Source of the DNA: a virus
Length of the DNA stretch: 64,000 nucleotides
IMG/VR virus record: IMGVR_UViG_3300032011_002687
Location: 1-64,000 of that record
Reading direction: 5' to 3' (one strand)
Positions 36,031-46,535 of this stretch are shown piece by piece (position 1 is the stretch's first letter; the number at the start of each line of letters is the position of its first letter). The notes beneath the pieces were generated by a model. The model made no database searches. It saw only the letters and a list, made by a program, of their open reading frames with translations, and was not told the DNA's origin. A program made the translations under genes and the position numbers.

Positions 36031-38769
36031 TTAAAAATCAATAGTTAATCCTATGTTTGCATATCTTGGTGTTCCAAGAAATACTTCAGAATTATGAGCT
36101 AAGTGAAGTTTATCACCATACCCATTGTATTTACTATTGTCAACGGCATCTTGTACGAAAACTTCATCAAGTGCGTTAAAGATGTGACCTGTAATAGTCA
36201 AATCTAAACCACCAATACTTGGAAGTTTGTAAGATGCGTGTAAATCAAGTTTTGAGTAACCAGGAGCTTCCCAAACTTGTGTTCTATCTGCAACTCCATC
36301 AGAATCCACTTCTCTTGAATCAGGACTCCAATCTGCATAGTTCTTATCATATACATTGTAAAGTGCTTGTAATCTCAATCCCTTAATAGGTTTAAGTGTT
36401 ACACCCAATATATAAGATGATTGTGGTTGGTCACCAACAAATAAACCATCAAGTGCATATGCATATTCAGTAGTTTGATAACCAATTACTTGGTTGTCAT
36501 CGTTATATTGAGATTCTTGGTAAGTACCATTGGCATCACCATCGAATTTCCAACCACCGAATGAAGCAATTAAATCAAGTTCTACCATATCGTGTGGTAA
36601 TACTTTTACTTCAAGTTCTGTACCTTGATGTTTCTGATTAACACCTCTTAAAAAGATTACATCAGTATCACCTGAATCACCTTGACCCGTGTCAACATTA
36701 CGAGTAAGGTTTCTATCTTTCCAATCTGTGTTATATACGGAAACATTAACTGCAACTTTATCATTTGCATATCCCAGTCCAACTTCTGTTGATAAGAATT
36801 TCTCATTATCTGGGTCGGATGAGACCGTACCAGAATAATCAATTACATTATCAAGAATTGGTGCTTTTTCTACATATCCTGAGTTGATGAATGAAGTAAC
36901 ACCTGGAATAATTTCATAGTGTACTCCACCTTTAACTTGAAATGATGAAATAGCATCGGCAGTAATTTTCTCGTTTTCTACTGAAAAATGGTCTTGATAT
37001 GAGTATTGAATAGATGATACCCCACCCATTCCATATACATTTAGATTATCTTTCGTGTAGTTACCTTGAACAAATCCACCTAACCAATCGACAGTAGTAG
37101 TGTTGTGATAAGCAATAATATCACCTAAACCAACAACTTTCCCATCTGGTGCATTTTTATCTGCAAAATCAACATAGTAATCACCACCTAATAAATCACG
37201 AACTTCACGAGCGTGTTCTATTTCAGCAGTTCTCCAGTCAATACCTGTCTGAAACTCTAAATTATCATTTACTTTGTAATTTAATTTAGAGATTAATCCG
37301 TATGTGTCCTGTCTGTTGATTGAGTTTCTAAGAATACCTGTGGAACGCTTGTCTGTTTCAGAGTAATCAGCATCGATATTAGTACGATTCTGTTCAATCT
37401 CTCCATTCCAATCCCACATCCAAGGCGAACTTGAATACCAAGCATTATCTGCTACAGCAGGTGTTCTCATTACACTACCATAAGTACCAGTTCCACCACC
37501 TGAACCACCACTCCAATAAAGAACTGATGATAATTTAGTTTTATCATTTATCTCTAAAAAGTGATTTAGATTCACTAATGGTTTATGGAAGAAATTCTCC
37601 CTTTCATTAAGAAAGTTTGAATTGTATCTTTTGGTTGTGTTTGCTCCATACATATACCAATATTGTTCTCCAGTGTAGTCGGAACTAACTGGTGCCCAAT
37701 TTTGACTAAAGAATCTACCAGCTTCAGTTTCGAATTTGTTACCCTCTGCAAAAGCATCAGTATCATATCCGTCAATATCACCAGCTAACTCTTGTGAGTA
37801 AGTAGCAATATTCTGTTTGTATAGATTTTGTCCGTGTCTTTGTGGAGCACCGATTGCATACAACTCAAATCGTTGTTTATCGGATACTGCGTAAGAACTT
37901 CCAAAATAATAAGCCCAAGCATCTGTCCAGTTTCCATCAATGATACCATCACCAGTCTTACGAACAATTGTTCCAGCCAGTGCAAGTTTATCACCAATTA
38001 AACCTGTATTATAGTTAATAGTAGTTTTAAGAAAACCACCATCTCCTGTTTCTTGTTTGAACTTACCACCCTTTTCATATTTAGCAGGGTCTGTAATGAT
38101 ATTCATAGTTCCACCAATAGAAGGTGTTGCTAAATTAACAGCAGATAGTCCTCTTTGTAACTGAATAGATTGAGCAGCATCTGCAACTCCATCCCAATTA
38201 CTCCAATAAACCCATCCGTTCTCCATATCATTTTGGGGAACACCATTAATCATTACCGCAACATTTCGTTGGTTAAATCCACGAACATTGATTCTTGCAT
38301 CACCAGCACCACCACCTTGTTGAGTTGCATATACACTTGGTGTAGTATTCAAAGCCATTGGAACATCTTGAGAACCTAATCTCAATTCCATTTCTTCTTT
38401 ACTAACCATTGAATAAGCAACAGGTGTTGTTGCAACAGCTCTTGAAGCCAAAACTTCAACATCTGTTAGAGTAAGAGCATCAACTGCCAAAGCAATATCT
38501 ACTTTTACTTCACTATCACTCACAACAACCTCTTTAGATTGAGATGAGTATCCTATGAATGAAGCAGTAATAGTATAAGTTCCAGCTTCTACTGAAATTG
38601 TAGTAAGACCTGTCTCGTTAGTAACACCACCGAGTTCAGTTCCCTCTACCACTACATTTGCTCCAACCAAAGGGTTATATTCTGCATCTTTAACATCAAC
38701 AACGATGGATTGAGCGAACAATCCTGTCATCAATACGAAAGATGCTATTAGTTTACGATATATATTCAT
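36031..38769 (-). CDS. TonB-dependent outer-membrane receptor
   Basis: 912 residues. Signal peptide 1-19 (ends GLFAQ), a carboxypeptidase-regulatory-like beta sandwich at about 20-95 (GANVVVEGTELGG, FIGYSSQ), plug at about 110-230 with RINVRGFNQRNVAVMINGVPQND and GGTMNIIT, and a barrel to the end, closing with a terminal Phe (IGLTIDF). Such proteins import siderophores, glycans or vitamins with TonB energy. Finding one between phage polymerase and reductase genes is unusual. It has its own promoter, strong AGAGGAG ribosome site and terminator. The substrate is unknown. Confidence 0.93.
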   Translation of the reverse strand: MNIYRKLIASFVLMTGLFAQSIVVDVKDAEYNPLVGANVVVEGTELGGVTNETGLTTISVEAGTYTITASFIGYSSQSKEVVVSDSEVKVDIALAVDALTLTDVEVLASRAVATTPVAYSMVSKEEMELRLGSQDVPMALNTTPSVYATQQGGGAGDARINVRGFNQRNVAVMINGVPQNDMENGWVYWSNWDGVADAAQSIQLQRGLSAVNLATPSIGGTMNIITDPAKYEKGGKFKQETGDGGFLKTTINYNTGLIGDKLALAGTIVRKTGDGIIDGNWTDAWAYYFGSSYAVSDKQRFELYAIGAPQRHGQNLYKQNIATYSQELAGDIDGYDTDAFAEGNKFETEAGRFFSQNWAPVSSDYTGEQYWYMYGANTTKRYNSNFLNERENFFHKPLVNLNHFLEINDKTKLSSVLYWSGGSGGGTGTYGSVMRTPAVADNAWYSSSPWMWDWNGEIEQNRTNIDADYSETDKRSTGILRNSINRQDTYGLISKLNYKVNDNLEFQTGIDWRTAEIEHAREVRDLLGGDYYVDFADKNAPDGKVVGLGDIIAYHNTTTVDWLGGFVQGNYTKDNLNVYGMGGVSSIQYSYQDHFSVENEKITADAISSFQVKGGVHYEIIPGVTSFINSGYVEKAPILDNVIDYSGTVSSDPDNEKFLSTEVGLGYANDKVAVNVSVYNTDWKDRNLTRNVDTGQGDSGDTDVIFLRGVNQKHQGTELEVKVLPHDMVELDLIASFGGWKFDGDANGTYQESQYNDDNQVIGYQTTEYAYALDGLFVGDQPQSSYILGVTLKPIKGLRLQALYNVYDKNYADWSPDSREVDSDGVADRTQVWEAPGYSKLDLHASYKLPSIGGLDLTITGHIFNALDEVFVQDAVDNSKYNGYGDKLHLAHNSEVFLGTPRYANIGLTIDF

Positions 38770-38853: not shown

Positions 38854-40875
38854 TTAGTTTGCGTAATCTTGGTCATCATTATCACCAGTTGTCGGTGTGA
38901 TTTCTACATCACAAAAATCACCATCACAAAATTTTTCTATATTTGCTTCTTCCGCCTTGATTACACCAAAGTTTAATTTACCAAGTTTCTTAACATCTTT
39001 ATTATATTGTTTTTCATCAATTGCTTCATACGGCATTTGTTTGTATGCTCCATAATCGTGTCTTGGTAGTAAACTAATTCCCTTTAAATGATATTGAAAA
39101 TAGTTTAATACTTGTGGTATCATTTCACCCTCTGTATCAGGATTAAATGTGACAGTACAACTTACTTGATTATCAGCCCAATGTCTTTGCATAAATGCTG
39201 CTAAACTGAATTGTTCCCAAATGGATAATTCTCCGACTGTTCTAATTCCCTCTCCTACATCGACAGGAACTTCAACAACCATAGTGGTATCCTCTGAACC
39301 AAATGCAGGTTCTACTTTATATCCTGCCTTTTTCAATGGTTCTAACAAATCTGAATGTTTCGATACTCTAATTCTTCTTGTATAGAATCTTGATTCAGGA
39401 TAATGTAATCCAGGTGTTGAACCTGCTAATAGTGATACTGTCCCACTTGGTTTAACACTTGTAGTTTTAATTGATTTTGGTACTGCAAACCAATCTGAAT
39501 ACATATTATCCCATTCTTGTATAGTATCGTATCCCTCTTCTAACCAATTCTTTAATTCGTGTAAACCACGATTAGTAATGAACTGAGCAATTCCACTCAC
39601 ACTACATCCAATTCTACGATTTCTCAACATCACACGATTAGTATCACTCCAATGAGTTCTACCTAATGTTACTGTCTTTGCATACAAATAAGCATATTTT
39701 AATGTTCTCTGATAATCCTCTAATGAATCGTGGTTACTTGGAAATGTTTCCACTAAACAACATAACTCATATGATTCTAATGATTGTTCCAAACAAGGAT
39801 TACCACCCATTACTCTATGGTCTTTATCATCTCCACCATTTTTCATACGAGAATAATGTCTCATATTTTCTAACCACGCAAATCCAGGTTCACCATTATC
39901 ATTAATTCTTTTTGATGCCTCTGTATAATCCATACCAAGTTCAGCAAATATTGAATTATTAGATGTCCAACCATATTGTTCTCTATGTGGATTTACTTTA
40001 TAGTTCTTTAAATCTAAATACTCTTCATTGTGTGGGTCACCAAATACAATCTCTGCAGTTCTTCTCACATTACCCGCAACAACACACTTACCGATTAGAT
40101 TCATAATATCTACGATGGTTGTTATTGTTATTGGTTTTCCACTATTTTTTTCTAATGTTTCTCTAACAGTCTCGTGTACTTCCATTAGTGGTTCAGGACC
40201 TGAACTTACTCCTCCAAAACCTTTGATTGGAACACCTGCTAATCTGATTAAACTATAATCAAATACAACTTCCCCTTGTCCGTGAAAGTAACTTTCTAAT
40301 AAAAGTTGTAGTGATTCTACCCAACCCTCACGAGTATCTGGTATTTGGAAATTCTGCTCATCTCTTTTGATATCAATACCTTTAATATCTATCTCACCAG
40401 CACCCTTTGTATCGAAACCAACACCAACTCCTAACATACTTGCATCCATCAAGAAACAAAATGGTTTGGAATAATCTTCTTTGATTGTTTTTGTTGATAC
40501 GAATGCACAATTATTTAGTGCTGCATATAAACCTTTTTCTTCTGTGATTGCCGTTCCCATAGCCCATAAACCACGACCTGGTGGAAGAAACTTCATTGTA
40601 AAGATTCTTTCATACATATCTTGTGCGGATTTTTGTGCTTGCCAAGGATTCCAACCTAATTGATGAGATTCAATCCAATTCATTTGCATTGTATAAGTTC
40701 CCTCTACAACTCTTTGGACAGTTTCCCACCATCTTTCATTTTTTCCATCTTCTTTAATTCTTGAATAAGTTCTCATATAAACTAATTCACCTAACCCATT
40801 AAAACCGAAAGGCGGTTTCTTTCTTTTGTACTTATCTATAAAGTTATCTGATAACTTGAACTTATGTTTTCCCAT
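38854..40875 (-). CDS. Class II (cobalamin-dependent) ribonucleotide reductase, monomeric RTPR type
   Basis: 673 residues. The active-site set is visible: Cys in NNCAFVST near 123, NPCLE near 359-363 (radical Cys and Glu), LCCL near 372, the phosphate-binding SVKPSGTVS, and a C-terminal CDGDFC redox pair (CX4C) as in RTPR. It makes deoxynucleotides from ribonucleotides with adenosylcobalamin, so the phage depends on host B12. Start 40875 is used because GGAG, inside an upstream in-frame ATGGAG at 40890, is placed correctly for it. Confidence 0.93.
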   Translation of the reverse strand: MGKHKFKLSDNFIDKYKRKKPPFGFNGLGELVYMRTYSRIKEDGKNERWWETVQRVVEGTYTMQMNWIESHQLGWNPWQAQKSAQDMYERIFTMKFLPPGRGLWAMGTAITEEKGLYAALNNCAFVSTKTIKEDYSKPFCFLMDASMLGVGVGFDTKGAGEIDIKGIDIKRDEQNFQIPDTREGWVESLQLLLESYFHGQGEVVFDYSLIRLAGVPIKGFGGVSSGPEPLMEVHETVRETLEKNSGKPITITTIVDIMNLIGKCVVAGNVRRTAEIVFGDPHNEEYLDLKNYKVNPHREQYGWTSNNSIFAELGMDYTEASKRINDNGEPGFAWLENMRHYSRMKNGGDDKDHRVMGGNPCLEQSLESYELCCLVETFPSNHDSLEDYQRTLKYAYLYAKTVTLGRTHWSDTNRVMLRNRRIGCSVSGIAQFITNRGLHELKNWLEEGYDTIQEWDNMYSDWFAVPKSIKTTSVKPSGTVSLLAGSTPGLHYPESRFYTRRIRVSKHSDLLEPLKKAGYKVEPAFGSEDTTMVVEVPVDVGEGIRTVGELSIWEQFSLAAFMQRHWADNQVSCTVTFNPDTEGEMIPQVLNYFQYHLKGISLLPRHDYGAYKQMPYEAIDEKQYNKDVKKLGKLNFGVIKAEEANIEKFCDGDFCDVEITPTTGDNDDQDYAN

Positions 40876-40991
40876 TTTGAAACTCTCCATTTTTAAATTT
40901 AATTATACCTATTATATGTATGATATATACTTGATTATATTAGCAATATATACATTTTTTTCGAAGTTTAAAAAAGATTTTCTTTGAAGTT

Positions 40992-44796: not shown

Positions 44797-45573
44797 TTAC
44801 GAGTTAAACAACTCATCAAAAGCATCACCAGTATTACTTACTTTAGATGTTTCGATTTCAGCTACATTTTCTTTAACGGCTTTCTCAGTTGATGATACTT
44901 CTGAATTTGTTGTTTCAGTAGTTTCCCCATCTGGATTTAACCATTCATTCAATACATCTGTCATATCATCATATGATAATTCTTGATATATCTCTGTAAT
45001 GTCTTGTTGTGCTTTAACTTTTTCCAATACTTCAGGTTCATCTGAGATTGGTGTTTGATTAGGTTTTACACGAATGTTAGTTTTAGGATAACTTGCTCCA
45101 CTCTCTTCTGCAGAGATAAACTCAACAACCACATCACGACCATTTACTGGGTCTGTAATATCACCATAATCAGGGTCTGCGATTACTGAAAGTAGTTCTT
45201 GATAAACTGTCTTTCCAAATCCCCAAAACTTCACACCTTGTGATTCTTCACCACGAACAATGACAGGAGCAAAAGTTCTCATTTTTGCTTCAAGTTTGCG
45301 TGATAACTGATAATCTTCCTTATTACCACTTGCTTTTAGTTTTTGAGCAAACTCTTCAATAGGGTCTGGTCTACCAAAAGAAATTGGTGATAAATAAGAG
45401 CGATTGCTCAGATTGTAGTGAAAAAATAATTCAATAAAAGGATTATCTTTATTGAATGAGTAAGGTACGATACGAATTTGAGTTTTACCTGGTTGTGGTT
45501 TCCAAAGACTGGAAGTTCGATTGTTAGTAGTTTGTAACTGCCCGAGGCGTTTTTTTATTGCATTTAAATCCAT
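44797..45573 (-). CDS. 32: Single-stranded DNA-binding protein (T4 gp32-like)
   Basis: 258 residues. N-terminal LNAIKKRLGQL resembles the gp32 'B' region for cooperativity; KTQIRIVPY, FFHYNL, VKFWGFGK belong to the core, and the C-terminal 60 residues are acidic. T4 gp32 holds zinc through three Cys and a His; this protein has no cysteine. It lies right before uvsX, fitting replication and recombination use. Confidence 0.85.
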   Translation of the reverse strand: MDLNAIKKRLGQLQTTNNRTSSLWKPQPGKTQIRIVPYSFNKDNPFIELFFHYNLSNRSYLSPISFGRPDPIEEFAQKLKASGNKEDYQLSRKLEAKMRTFAPVIVRGEESQGVKFWGFGKTVYQELLSVIADPDYGDITDPVNGRDVVVEFISAEESGASYPKTNIRVKPNQTPISDEPEVLEKVKAQQDITEIYQELSYDDMTDVLNEWLNPDGETTETTNSEVSSTEKAVKENVAEIETSKVSNTGDAFDELFNS

Positions 45574-45633
45574 TTCATATTCTCCATTTGTTTATGTTCA
45601 TTTTTCATTTGTTAATCAAGTGTAACCTTGATA

Positions 45634-45647
45634 CAATAATATATATC
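45634..45647 (-). promoter_or_regulatory. Candidate promoter element (GATATATATTATTG) before gp32
   Basis: Minus-strand member of the GATATWTATTATTR set, 60 bases before the gp32 start. T at position 6 is replaced by A compared with copies before tail genes. Confidence 0.45.
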
Positions 45648-45689
45648 AATTAAGATAGTTAAAATGTAATTTATTTTAGTTTTTTGCAA

Positions 45690-46154
45690 AAAAAAGGTTC
45701 GGTCGATATTTTAAGTTTATTTATAAGTGGAAACTAAAATTTCGGTTGAACCTTTTTTTAATTAAAGAATTTGGGGGATGTAGGATTTGCGATTACCTAC
45801 AACTTTTAGCTCAGATTTTATTACTTCATACCTAACATCTACCAGTTACGATAGTTATTCTTAAATGATGGTTAATCATCGTAGAATCGAGTACAACCTC
45901 TATGTCATTGCTTTATCTCTCTGAGTATAGATTAATTCAGCCATTAAGTGGGATTTCAGTTTTACCCTTACCCACAATGAAGTCCAAGAATCGCTCTTGT
46001 TTTTTCTAAAAGTACATTCCAAATTATATGTCTATAAGGACCGTTACACCTCTACAACATTTAGCAGAGTTCCTGTCACCACAACATTTGGTAGATTACC
46101 TTATGGGCTTCTAAGTAGCACCCATTATTCGGTCAATCCCATATTGAGATAATT
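45690..46154 (-). ncRNA. Candidate large structured noncoding RNA
   Basis: No protein frame fits here. Reading the minus strand, a sigma70-like promoter (46161-46189) is followed by a set of short perfect stems: 46136-46140/45775-45779 (closing), 46130-46134/46039-46043, 46121-46125/46103-46107, 46064-46069/46050-46055, 45995-45999/45985-45989, 45971-45975/45948-45952, 45943-45947/45932-45936, 45883-45887/45857-45861 with an inner 45875-45879/45865-45869, and 45796-45801/45779-45784. Two adjacent hairpins share the loop sequence AAATGTTGT. It ends at the hairpin terminator. Size near 400-460 nt recalls ornate phage RNAs such as ROOL or GOLLD, but no specific match is claimed. Confidence 0.55.
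45696..45759. terminator. Bidirectional hairpin terminator
   Basis: GGTTC at 45696-45700 pairs with GAACC at 45748-45752 and the stem continues inward for about 18 pairs with one mismatch when read as plus-strand RNA (three G-U pairs). T7 follows on the plus strand and T8 on the minus strand. It closes the region containing the candidate structured RNA. Confidence 0.72.
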
Positions 46155-46160
46155 ACTCTC

Positions 46161-46189
46161 AATACTTTCACAAAATTCTAAATTGTCAA
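46161..46189 (-). promoter_or_regulatory. Sigma70-like promoter of the candidate RNA
   Basis: Minus strand TTGACA at 46189-46184, 17 bases, AGTATT at 46166-46161. The -35 is perfect, the -10 moderate. No coding frame follows for more than 500 bases, which supports an RNA gene. Confidence 0.55.
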
Positions 46190-46278
46190 AAAACTTTGTA
46201 TCTCAATCTTGATACATTAATATATATGTATATAAATTCCCAAAATACATTTTTTTTTCAAAAAAAGTAAAAAAAGTT

Positions 46279-46291
46279 GATATTTATTGTT
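46279..46291 (+). promoter_or_regulatory. Candidate late promoter element on the plus strand
   Basis: GATATTTATTGTT lies about 50 bases before the lone rightward gene of this region. Its orientation follows the gene, as do the minus-strand copies, which indicates that the motif is directional. Confidence 0.55.
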
Positions 46292-46340
46292 AATTAACCG
46301 ATTATGAGTTAATTTCAACGCGTTATCTCAGGAGTTTAGT

Positions 46341-46535
46341 ATGAAAACAATACTAACTGGTATACTTTCTTTATTTATTTTCTTTGGAGCAGTTCCGCAA
46401 GTGAATGCTATGGATATGAAAATGGATAATATGGAAGAAGTCAAGAAGAAGAAAAAGAAGAAAAAGAAACTTGGTGGAAGTAAAGGTAAGAAATCTAAAA
46501 AAGGGTTCTTTTCTAAAATCTTTGGAAGTAAGTAA
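46341..46535 (+). CDS. Secreted lysine-rich small protein
   Basis: 64 residues. A signal peptide of about 23 residues (hydrophobic core LTGILSLFIFFGAV, likely cut after VNA) precedes a 41-residue tail with nine lysines in a row and further Lys/Gly, ending GFFSKIFGSK. AGGAG stands six bases before the ATG and a hairpin terminator follows 12 bases after the stop, so it is a complete unit opposed to its neighbours. Function unknown: a cationic periplasmic peptide that could act on membranes, lysis or the outer surface (inference). Confidence 0.75.
   Translation: MKTILTGILSLFIFFGAVPQVNAMDMKMDNMEEVKKKKKKKKKLGGSKGKKSKKGFFSKIFGSK

Follow-up and report, generated by a model that had tools for sequence, protein, structure and literature searches.

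A probable tandem manA RNA with strand-swapped architecture upstream of gp32 in a virus contig

The gp32 locus and its candidate transcription signals

The window, the whole 64,000-nucleotide stretch analysed (positions 1 to 64,000 of IMG/VR record IMGVR_UViG_3300032011_002687), belongs to a 67-kb virus contig carrying T4-like replication genes, namely gp32, a UvsX-like recombinase, a DnaB-like helicase and a family B DNA polymerase. The gp32 gene is nearest to those of Microcystis and Flavobacterium phages, at 42–45% identity. Upstream of gp32 lies a gene-free gap of the length given in the initial annotation, occupied by an RNA array flanked by two promoter-like motifs and a terminator:

44797–45573, minus strand: gp32-type single-strand DNA-binding protein gene (Pfam PF08804, E 1e-12; PHROG 1192, E 7e-18)
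45573–46341: non-coding gap of 767 bases, from the gp32 start codon (45573, minus strand) to a plus-strand ORF (46341)
45627–45664, minus strand: candidate gp32 promoter P2, where the P1 motif recurs
45688–45757 (hairpin 45691–45757), minus strand: intrinsic terminator with a variable GC stem round the conserved core AUUUUUAGUUUCCAC...AACUUAAAA
45775–45976, minus strand: manA copy 2 (3' copy), RF01745, 64.3 bits, E 1.2e-17 (gathering score 55.2)
45945–46164, minus strand: manA copy 1 (5' copy), RF01745, 37 bits, below the gathering score
46208–46245, minus strand: candidate phage promoter P1, ahead of the array (TTTTGGGAATTTATATACATATATATTAATGTATCAAG), with a putative function

The plus-strand ORF (46341–46535), which diverges from the array, encodes 64 amino acids; its start resembles a signal peptide, its tail is rich in lysine, and searches of PHROGs and NCBIfam gave no family match for it. 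Among the phage replication genes, a 912-aa TonB-dependent-receptor-like protein (36031–38769, minus strand) with Pfam Plug and CarboxypepD_reg-like domains is encoded beside a B12-dependent ribonucleotide reductase (38854–40890, minus strand). Near full-length relatives of the receptor-like protein, at 69–96% identity, occur in eight of ten related virus records, with a partial match in a ninth, and the protein is a candidate phage-borne outer-membrane receptor.

IMG/VR relatives were gathered by scanning proteins with gp32 and DNA with the conserved hairpin GGTAAGGGTAANACYGAA. The array is present in 69 distinct loci after removal of duplicates, 64 of them yielding full segments (the window's own included), and gp32, encoding the ssDNA-binding protein, lies within 1.5 kb downstream in 63 of the 69. 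Searched whole, 28 of 44 gp32 records contain manA at E ≤ 0.01. The isolated phages of INPHARED hold no similar DNA, and the tandem form occurs in no isolate among them; manA is absent throughout the records of Microcystis phage Mel-JY01 and Flavobacterium phage immuto, the phages closest in gp32. A further 76 full single manA RNAs, 74 of them distinct, were taken from marine phage contigs, and 64 were parsed for the X-Y helix described below. Two GTDB pattern hits (L318, L319) proved fortuitous, falling in coding-like sequence that has no array. A third manA copy, suspected from a short motif in L055, L062 and L081, was also discarded, as the extra stretch is a separate hairpin with no manA core. 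One tandem subgroup (L062, L081, L272) bears an additional hairpin, GGAAAGTATC...ACTTTCC, located after the array and before the terminator.

The core ATATATATTAWTGTATCAAG of the promoter-like motif occurs exactly twice in the window, at 46208–46227 and 45627–45646, against 0.06 occurrences expected by chance (≤3 mismatches). The AT-rich P1 motif is conserved in relatives, and gp32 relatives without manA keep, by eye, a similar promoter-like stretch directly before gp32. The initial annotation had proposed a sigma70-like promoter; its consensus is matched 4 times where chance predicts 5.2, never on the minus strand, and the duplicated AT-rich motif is the better promoter candidate.

The terminator core is nearly invariant among relatives (ATTTTTAGTTTCCAC...AACTTAAAA), whereas the outer stems differ yet remain complementary (GGTTC/GAACC, TGGCCA/TGGCCA, GCCCCA/TGGGGC, GTGAGCC/GGCTCAC). 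The 45 loci with the core display at least ten different complementary stems, and because the U-tract is kept in 44 of the 45 while the 5' A-tract is not, the terminator is directed to the minus strand. The terminator noticed initially is confirmed as a hairpin at 45757–45691. Elsewhere in the window the core has chance-level matches only, and its almost invariant inner sequence may be a putative binding site of its own. A late promoter, TATAAATA, considered in the terminator loop (about 45718–45725), is not conserved in relatives and was rejected.

Two manA copies and their covarying fold

An Rfam scan of the whole window returned a single match above the gathering score, a manA RNA (RF01745) on the minus strand corresponding to copy 2. 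Copy 1 by itself falls below that score and was found either when the region was scanned by itself or when a laxer threshold was applied to the whole record (37 bits); its first part (46032–46164) reaches 25.9 bits (E 1.5e-4) with the region scanned alone. Despite its 37-bit score, copy 1 keeps most of the manA secondary structure. Both copies score well below eight cyanophage-type single manA RNAs (64 and 37 bits versus 170–195). From 5' to 3' on the minus strand, the array comprises the following parts:

46198–46215, minus strand: 5' leader hairpin, GUAUC...GAUAC; relatives have other complementary arms
46141–46165, minus strand: P1 hairpin of copy 1; helix 1, 96% paired, three pairs with two-sided changes
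46136–46140, minus strand: closing strand C5 of copy 1 (GGGAU); helix 2, partner C3 of copy 2
46098–46133, minus strand: P3/P3b hairpin of copy 1, core GACCGAAUAA...UAAGGU; helices 3–4, 96–100% paired, two-sided changes
46019–46091, minus strand: P4 multiloop of copy 1 (GUGGUG loop; GACA-loop hairpin); helices 5 and 7, helix 6 poorly aligned
46006–46013, minus strand: strand X1 (ACUUUUAG); pairs with Y2, not Y1, two-sided changes in 6 of 8 pairs
45991–45994, minus strand: K1 (GCGA); contacts UCGC 45789–45792, the last hairpin loop of copy 2
45977–45983, minus strand: strand Y1 (ACUUCAU); pairs with X2, helix 10, 95% paired
45948–45975, minus strand: 3' hairpin H3 of copy 1 (GUGGGUAAGGGUAAAACUGAAAUCCCAC); helix 11, 100% paired
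45910–45941, minus strand: P3/P3b hairpin of copy 2; helices 12–14, 100% paired, two-sided changes
45833–45907, minus strand: P4 multiloop of copy 2, three hairpins; helices 15–18, 98–100% paired, 13 two-sided pairs
45823–45829, minus strand: strand X2 (AUGAAGU); partner Y1
45802–45809, minus strand: strand Y2 (CUAAAAGU); partner X1
45780–45800, minus strand: 3' hairpin H3 of copy 2 (GUAGG...CCUAC); helices 19 and 9, loop UCGC contacts K1
45775–45779, minus strand: closing strand C3 of copy 2 (AUCCC); helix 2

The leader hairpin arms vary among relatives, for example GTATCA/TGATAC in L009 and ATACTTAA/TTAAGTAT in L012, and were not formally counted. The H3 hairpin of copy 1 is also read as P1 of copy 2 by the Rfam model.

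The complete structure model contains 93 pairs in 19 helices. Across 17 distinct sequences, 97.3% of cells are paired, compared with 81.8% in shuffles, and sliding the partners by 1–3 bases lowers pairing to 37–42%. Two-sided changes affect 58 of the 93 pairs in the same 17 sequences (shuffles 33.0, sd 3.0; 0 of 500 reach 58), pair counts here being numbers of sequences rather than of independent events. Folding energy is modestly better than in shuffles (z = −2.2 on the minus strand, −1.8 on the plus strand), and it is covariation, not folding energy, that proves a structured RNA. The large minus-strand RNA of the initial annotation was therefore confirmed by the Rfam scan and homologue covariation that it had itself proposed.

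The helix said to close both ends of that RNA also stands. Closing helix 2 joins GGGAU 46140–46136 to AUCCC 45779–45775 (GGAAU/AUUCC in relatives), is 100% paired with a two-sided change in one pair, and is likewise 100% paired in 63 sequences. Together with the 3' hairpins of the GGUA...AAUCC type it corresponds to the 3' hairpin and closing helix of manA (helices 2, 11 and 19, each 100% paired). Both copies also possess the manA P3, with a covarying 2-bp closing helix beside GAAUAA...UAAGG and AU-to-GC changes in helices 3, 4, 12 and 13. The manA P4, a three-hairpin multiloop whose first loop is of the GUGGUG type, is present in copy 2 (helices 15–18, 98–100% paired) and in copy 1 (helices 5 and 7), where the middle hairpin was recognised by eye only and helix 6 (Pa of copy 1) is misaligned, with 57% of cells paired.

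Two smaller motifs of the initial annotation fared differently. A four-way junction enclosed by 46130–46134/46039–46043 has its 3' strand in an insertion carried by the window's copy and lacking in most relatives, and bases 46133–46131 pair with 46100–46098 instead. Of two tandem hairpins said to share the loop AAATGTTGT, only the conserved YGUGGUGA part of the first is a manA element; the likeness between the two loops is peculiar to the window sequence. The P3-loop pseudoknot of copy 2 (CUCAGA 45920–45925 with 45810–45815) stays local, with CUCAGA/UCUGAG, CUUGGA/UCCAAG and CUCUGA/UCAGAG among the sequences. Pairings of K2 with H3 loop 1 and of P3 loop 1 with PKs1 were dropped, their support being absent or weak, so that copy 1 may lack a pseudoknot of its own.

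The region had further been likened to the ornate phage RNAs ROOL and GOLLD, with no known class recognised. It is indeed large, multi-branched and pseudoknotted, and in this phage a promoter-like motif and a terminator flank it; however, it matches manA twice in Rfam and nothing else above the gathering score, and manA core motifs occur in both copies. The ROOL and GOLLD models gave no match at the gathering score in the window and none up to E 5 in the region. ROOL and GOLLD RNAs are larger than the array. A new large RNA of that ornate kind is hardly conceivable here. What stood of the overall first interpretation is a large minus-strand RNA with a closing helix; its class, its tandem nature and the exchange of strands had been missed.

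Exchange of strands between the copies

All 64 parsed single manA RNAs have a local helix of 5–8 bp (7 in most) between strand X, which follows the P4 multiloop, and strand Y close by; many different complementary sequences make up this helix. The inner loop of this X-Y helix contacts the 3' hairpin loop, with changes such as CTGT/ACAG to ATGT/ACAT. The tandem array lacks the local helix and has crossed helices X1-Y2 and Y1-X2 instead, so that it is a manA variant and not a standard member. An unprejudiced search for covarying stems ranked first the helix 46013–46006/45809–45802, which joins the copy 1 linker to the end of copy 2.

In 63 sequences, counted with our own script on a MAFFT alignment and with kinship ignored (no phylogenetic null such as R-scape), the mean longest run is 8.0 for X1-Y2 and 7.1 for Y1-X2, versus 3.1 and 3.7 for the local X1-Y1 and X2-Y2, which do not pair. 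Helix 10 (Y1-X2) has two-sided changes in 4–5 of its 7 pairs. K1 contacts the 3'-hairpin loop of copy 2 in 63 of 63 sequences (GCGA/UCGC, AUGA/UCAU, UUGA/UCAA), and this helix 9 is 100% paired with two-sided changes in 3 of 4 pairs. Covariation in the tandem loci supports one manA pseudoknot and one loop-loop contact. Both crossed helices also form in the minimum-energy fold of the window's minus strand as a single sequence. In one exception, L022, X1-Y2 is broken; its X1 resembles that of L030 and its Y2 that of L012, and recombination or a mixed assembly is therefore likely.

Two ordinary manA domains following one another, each with a local X-Y helix, would render the crossed pairs a chance or alternative fold. 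The Rfam model does align separately to each copy, and tandem riboswitches of such a kind are common (PMC9481103). Nevertheless, local runs of 3–4 nt face crossed runs of 7–8 nt, in which compensatory changes recur across the 63 sequences, and the slid controls fail; at the level of covariation this serial arrangement is already refuted by the alignments, leaving it very improbable. X1-Y2, Y1-X2, the outer closing helix and the K1-loop contact are exchanged between the copies, as shown by covariation. All supported contacts fit a nested topology of one manA within another, in which the outer manA combines the 5' part of copy 1 with the 3' end of copy 2, and a circularly permuted inner manA is inserted between K1 and Y2 of the outer one. 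We regard it as highly probable that the array is a tandem manA pair on the minus strand with a strand-swapped architecture, a judgement that covers identity and architecture, not function.

Discrete RNA or leader of gp32, and relation to known RNAs

The doubled promoter-like motif and the terminator suggest either a discrete RNA of ~0.5 kb or a terminated leader. As a discrete RNA, transcription would begin at the AT-rich phage promoter near 46210 and end, after ~0.5 kb, at the terminator 45757–45688, and a second similar promoter downstream of the terminator would serve gp32. Besides the duplicated motif and the terminator, four observations favour the discrete RNA: the promoter-like stretch before gp32 persists in relatives that have no manA; L023, which has no manA, keeps the upstream promoter-like motif and the terminator hairpin core in similar form; another gene is inserted between array and gp32 in L268 and L293; and cognate terminator arms match the array no better than non-cognate arms do, so that a sought antiterminator pairing was rejected.

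Other arrangements count against a discrete RNA, because a cis-acting leader would look the same: in L222 and L300 the array immediately precedes an ORF and the conserved terminator core is missing, and in L225 it precedes an Hsp20-like ORF (named from sequence). Among the 72 single manA RNAs whose downstream ORF could be read, 13 are also followed by a gp32-like gene, 30–50 nt from RNA to start; two of these 13 genes were checked and belong to PHROG 224 (E 1e-117 or better). Such proximity, found in other marine phage contigs, resembles a cis-element and likewise argues against a discrete RNA. Other single manA RNAs precede transaldolase, ThyX and Hsp20 genes. A hairpin with a T-run, AGACCTAAGATGCAACTC...GAGTxGGGCAGATGGTCT, lies directly 3' of the single manA in L099, L113, L134, L153, L176 and others; it recurs after many cyanophage-type manA RNAs and had no Rfam match in the scanned loci that bear it.

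As a terminated leader (attenuator), the manA pair would be a two-domain riboswitch or protein-binding leader whose state sets the balance between a stop at 45757–45688 and read-through into gp32, and the interlocking of two domains would steepen the response. The 63 of 69 tandem loci with gp32 downstream agree with this, as do the 13 single manA RNAs directly before such a gene, and the motif-bearing loci have a terminator after the array, as do other loci on visual inspection. manA is typed cis-regulatory in Rfam and is presented as a riboswitch candidate in the manA account of Weinberg et al. 2010 (PMC2864571). As to a 5' UTR location, gp32 lies downstream in those 63 loci, but in the window the terminator and the second promoter-like motif come between it and the array. 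Against a leader stand the second promoter-like motif between terminator and gp32, the terminator core kept in L023 without manA, the genes that part array from gp32 in L268 and L293, and terminator arms no more complementary to the array than non-cognate ones, although a protein-bound or transcription-timed terminator would need no sequence complementarity. We consider the leader possible but on balance doubtful, and lean slightly towards a regulatory role for the tandem manA RNA as a discrete, terminated transcript of the replication region. More tentatively, and rather unlikely, the free-standing terminated transcript would be a naturally occurring RNA pseudo-dimer, its domains swapped within one molecule and the swap fixed by evolution.

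manA (RF01745) has remained an orphan among riboswitch candidates since 2010; the manA account in Weinberg et al. 2010 (PMC2864571) does not mention a gp32 link, and the accessible PMC text on the manA RNA motif reports neither a ligand nor a tandem form. The array shares with manA the UGAAUAA-like and UAAGGU-like strands, the GUGGUG-type loop, the GGUA...AAUCC 3' hairpin, the P3/P4 layout, the closing helix and the P3-loop pseudoknot, as well as an occurrence in marine phages and overlapping associated genes (gp32, Hsp20). It differs from single manA RNAs in the fusion of two copies, in the exchange of the X-Y helix, one loop contact and the closing helix, and in the terminator with a conserved core that follows. 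Tandem riboswitches (glycine, glnA and others; PMC9481103) likewise place two like domains in series on one transcript; those domains fold side by side, whereas here each is completed by the other's strand, and the words nested, intertwined and swapped are absent from that review. In RNA, domain swapping is mainly known from dimers formed by separate molecules (PMC7357161). In crystals of such homodimers (ZTP, preQ1-III, glutamine-II and others), strands are traded between like domains and the fold is rebuilt as in the array, but two molecules are involved and several dimers are thought absent in vivo, in contrast to a swap within one molecule fixed by evolution. ROOL and GOLLD ornate RNAs (PMC12286853) are likewise large and structured, some from phages, but have no covariance-model match to the array. 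A phrase search of the literature, with supplements, subscription journals and preprints outside its scope, found no description of a strand-exchanged tandem manA, and priority for this form cannot be claimed with certainty.

The interlocked family of 69 loci offers a strict, testable model of which manA parts must stay together, and the gp32 link, recurring in unlike phages with single and tandem manA, narrows what the RNA controls. If the pseudo-dimer reading is true, the manA fold would work as a two-fold unit, single manA RNAs may pair in trans, and manA would not simply be a riboswitch for the gene beside it but a regulatory RNA of the phage. Should the topology be confirmed, the array would represent natural domain swapping fixed inside one RNA molecule.
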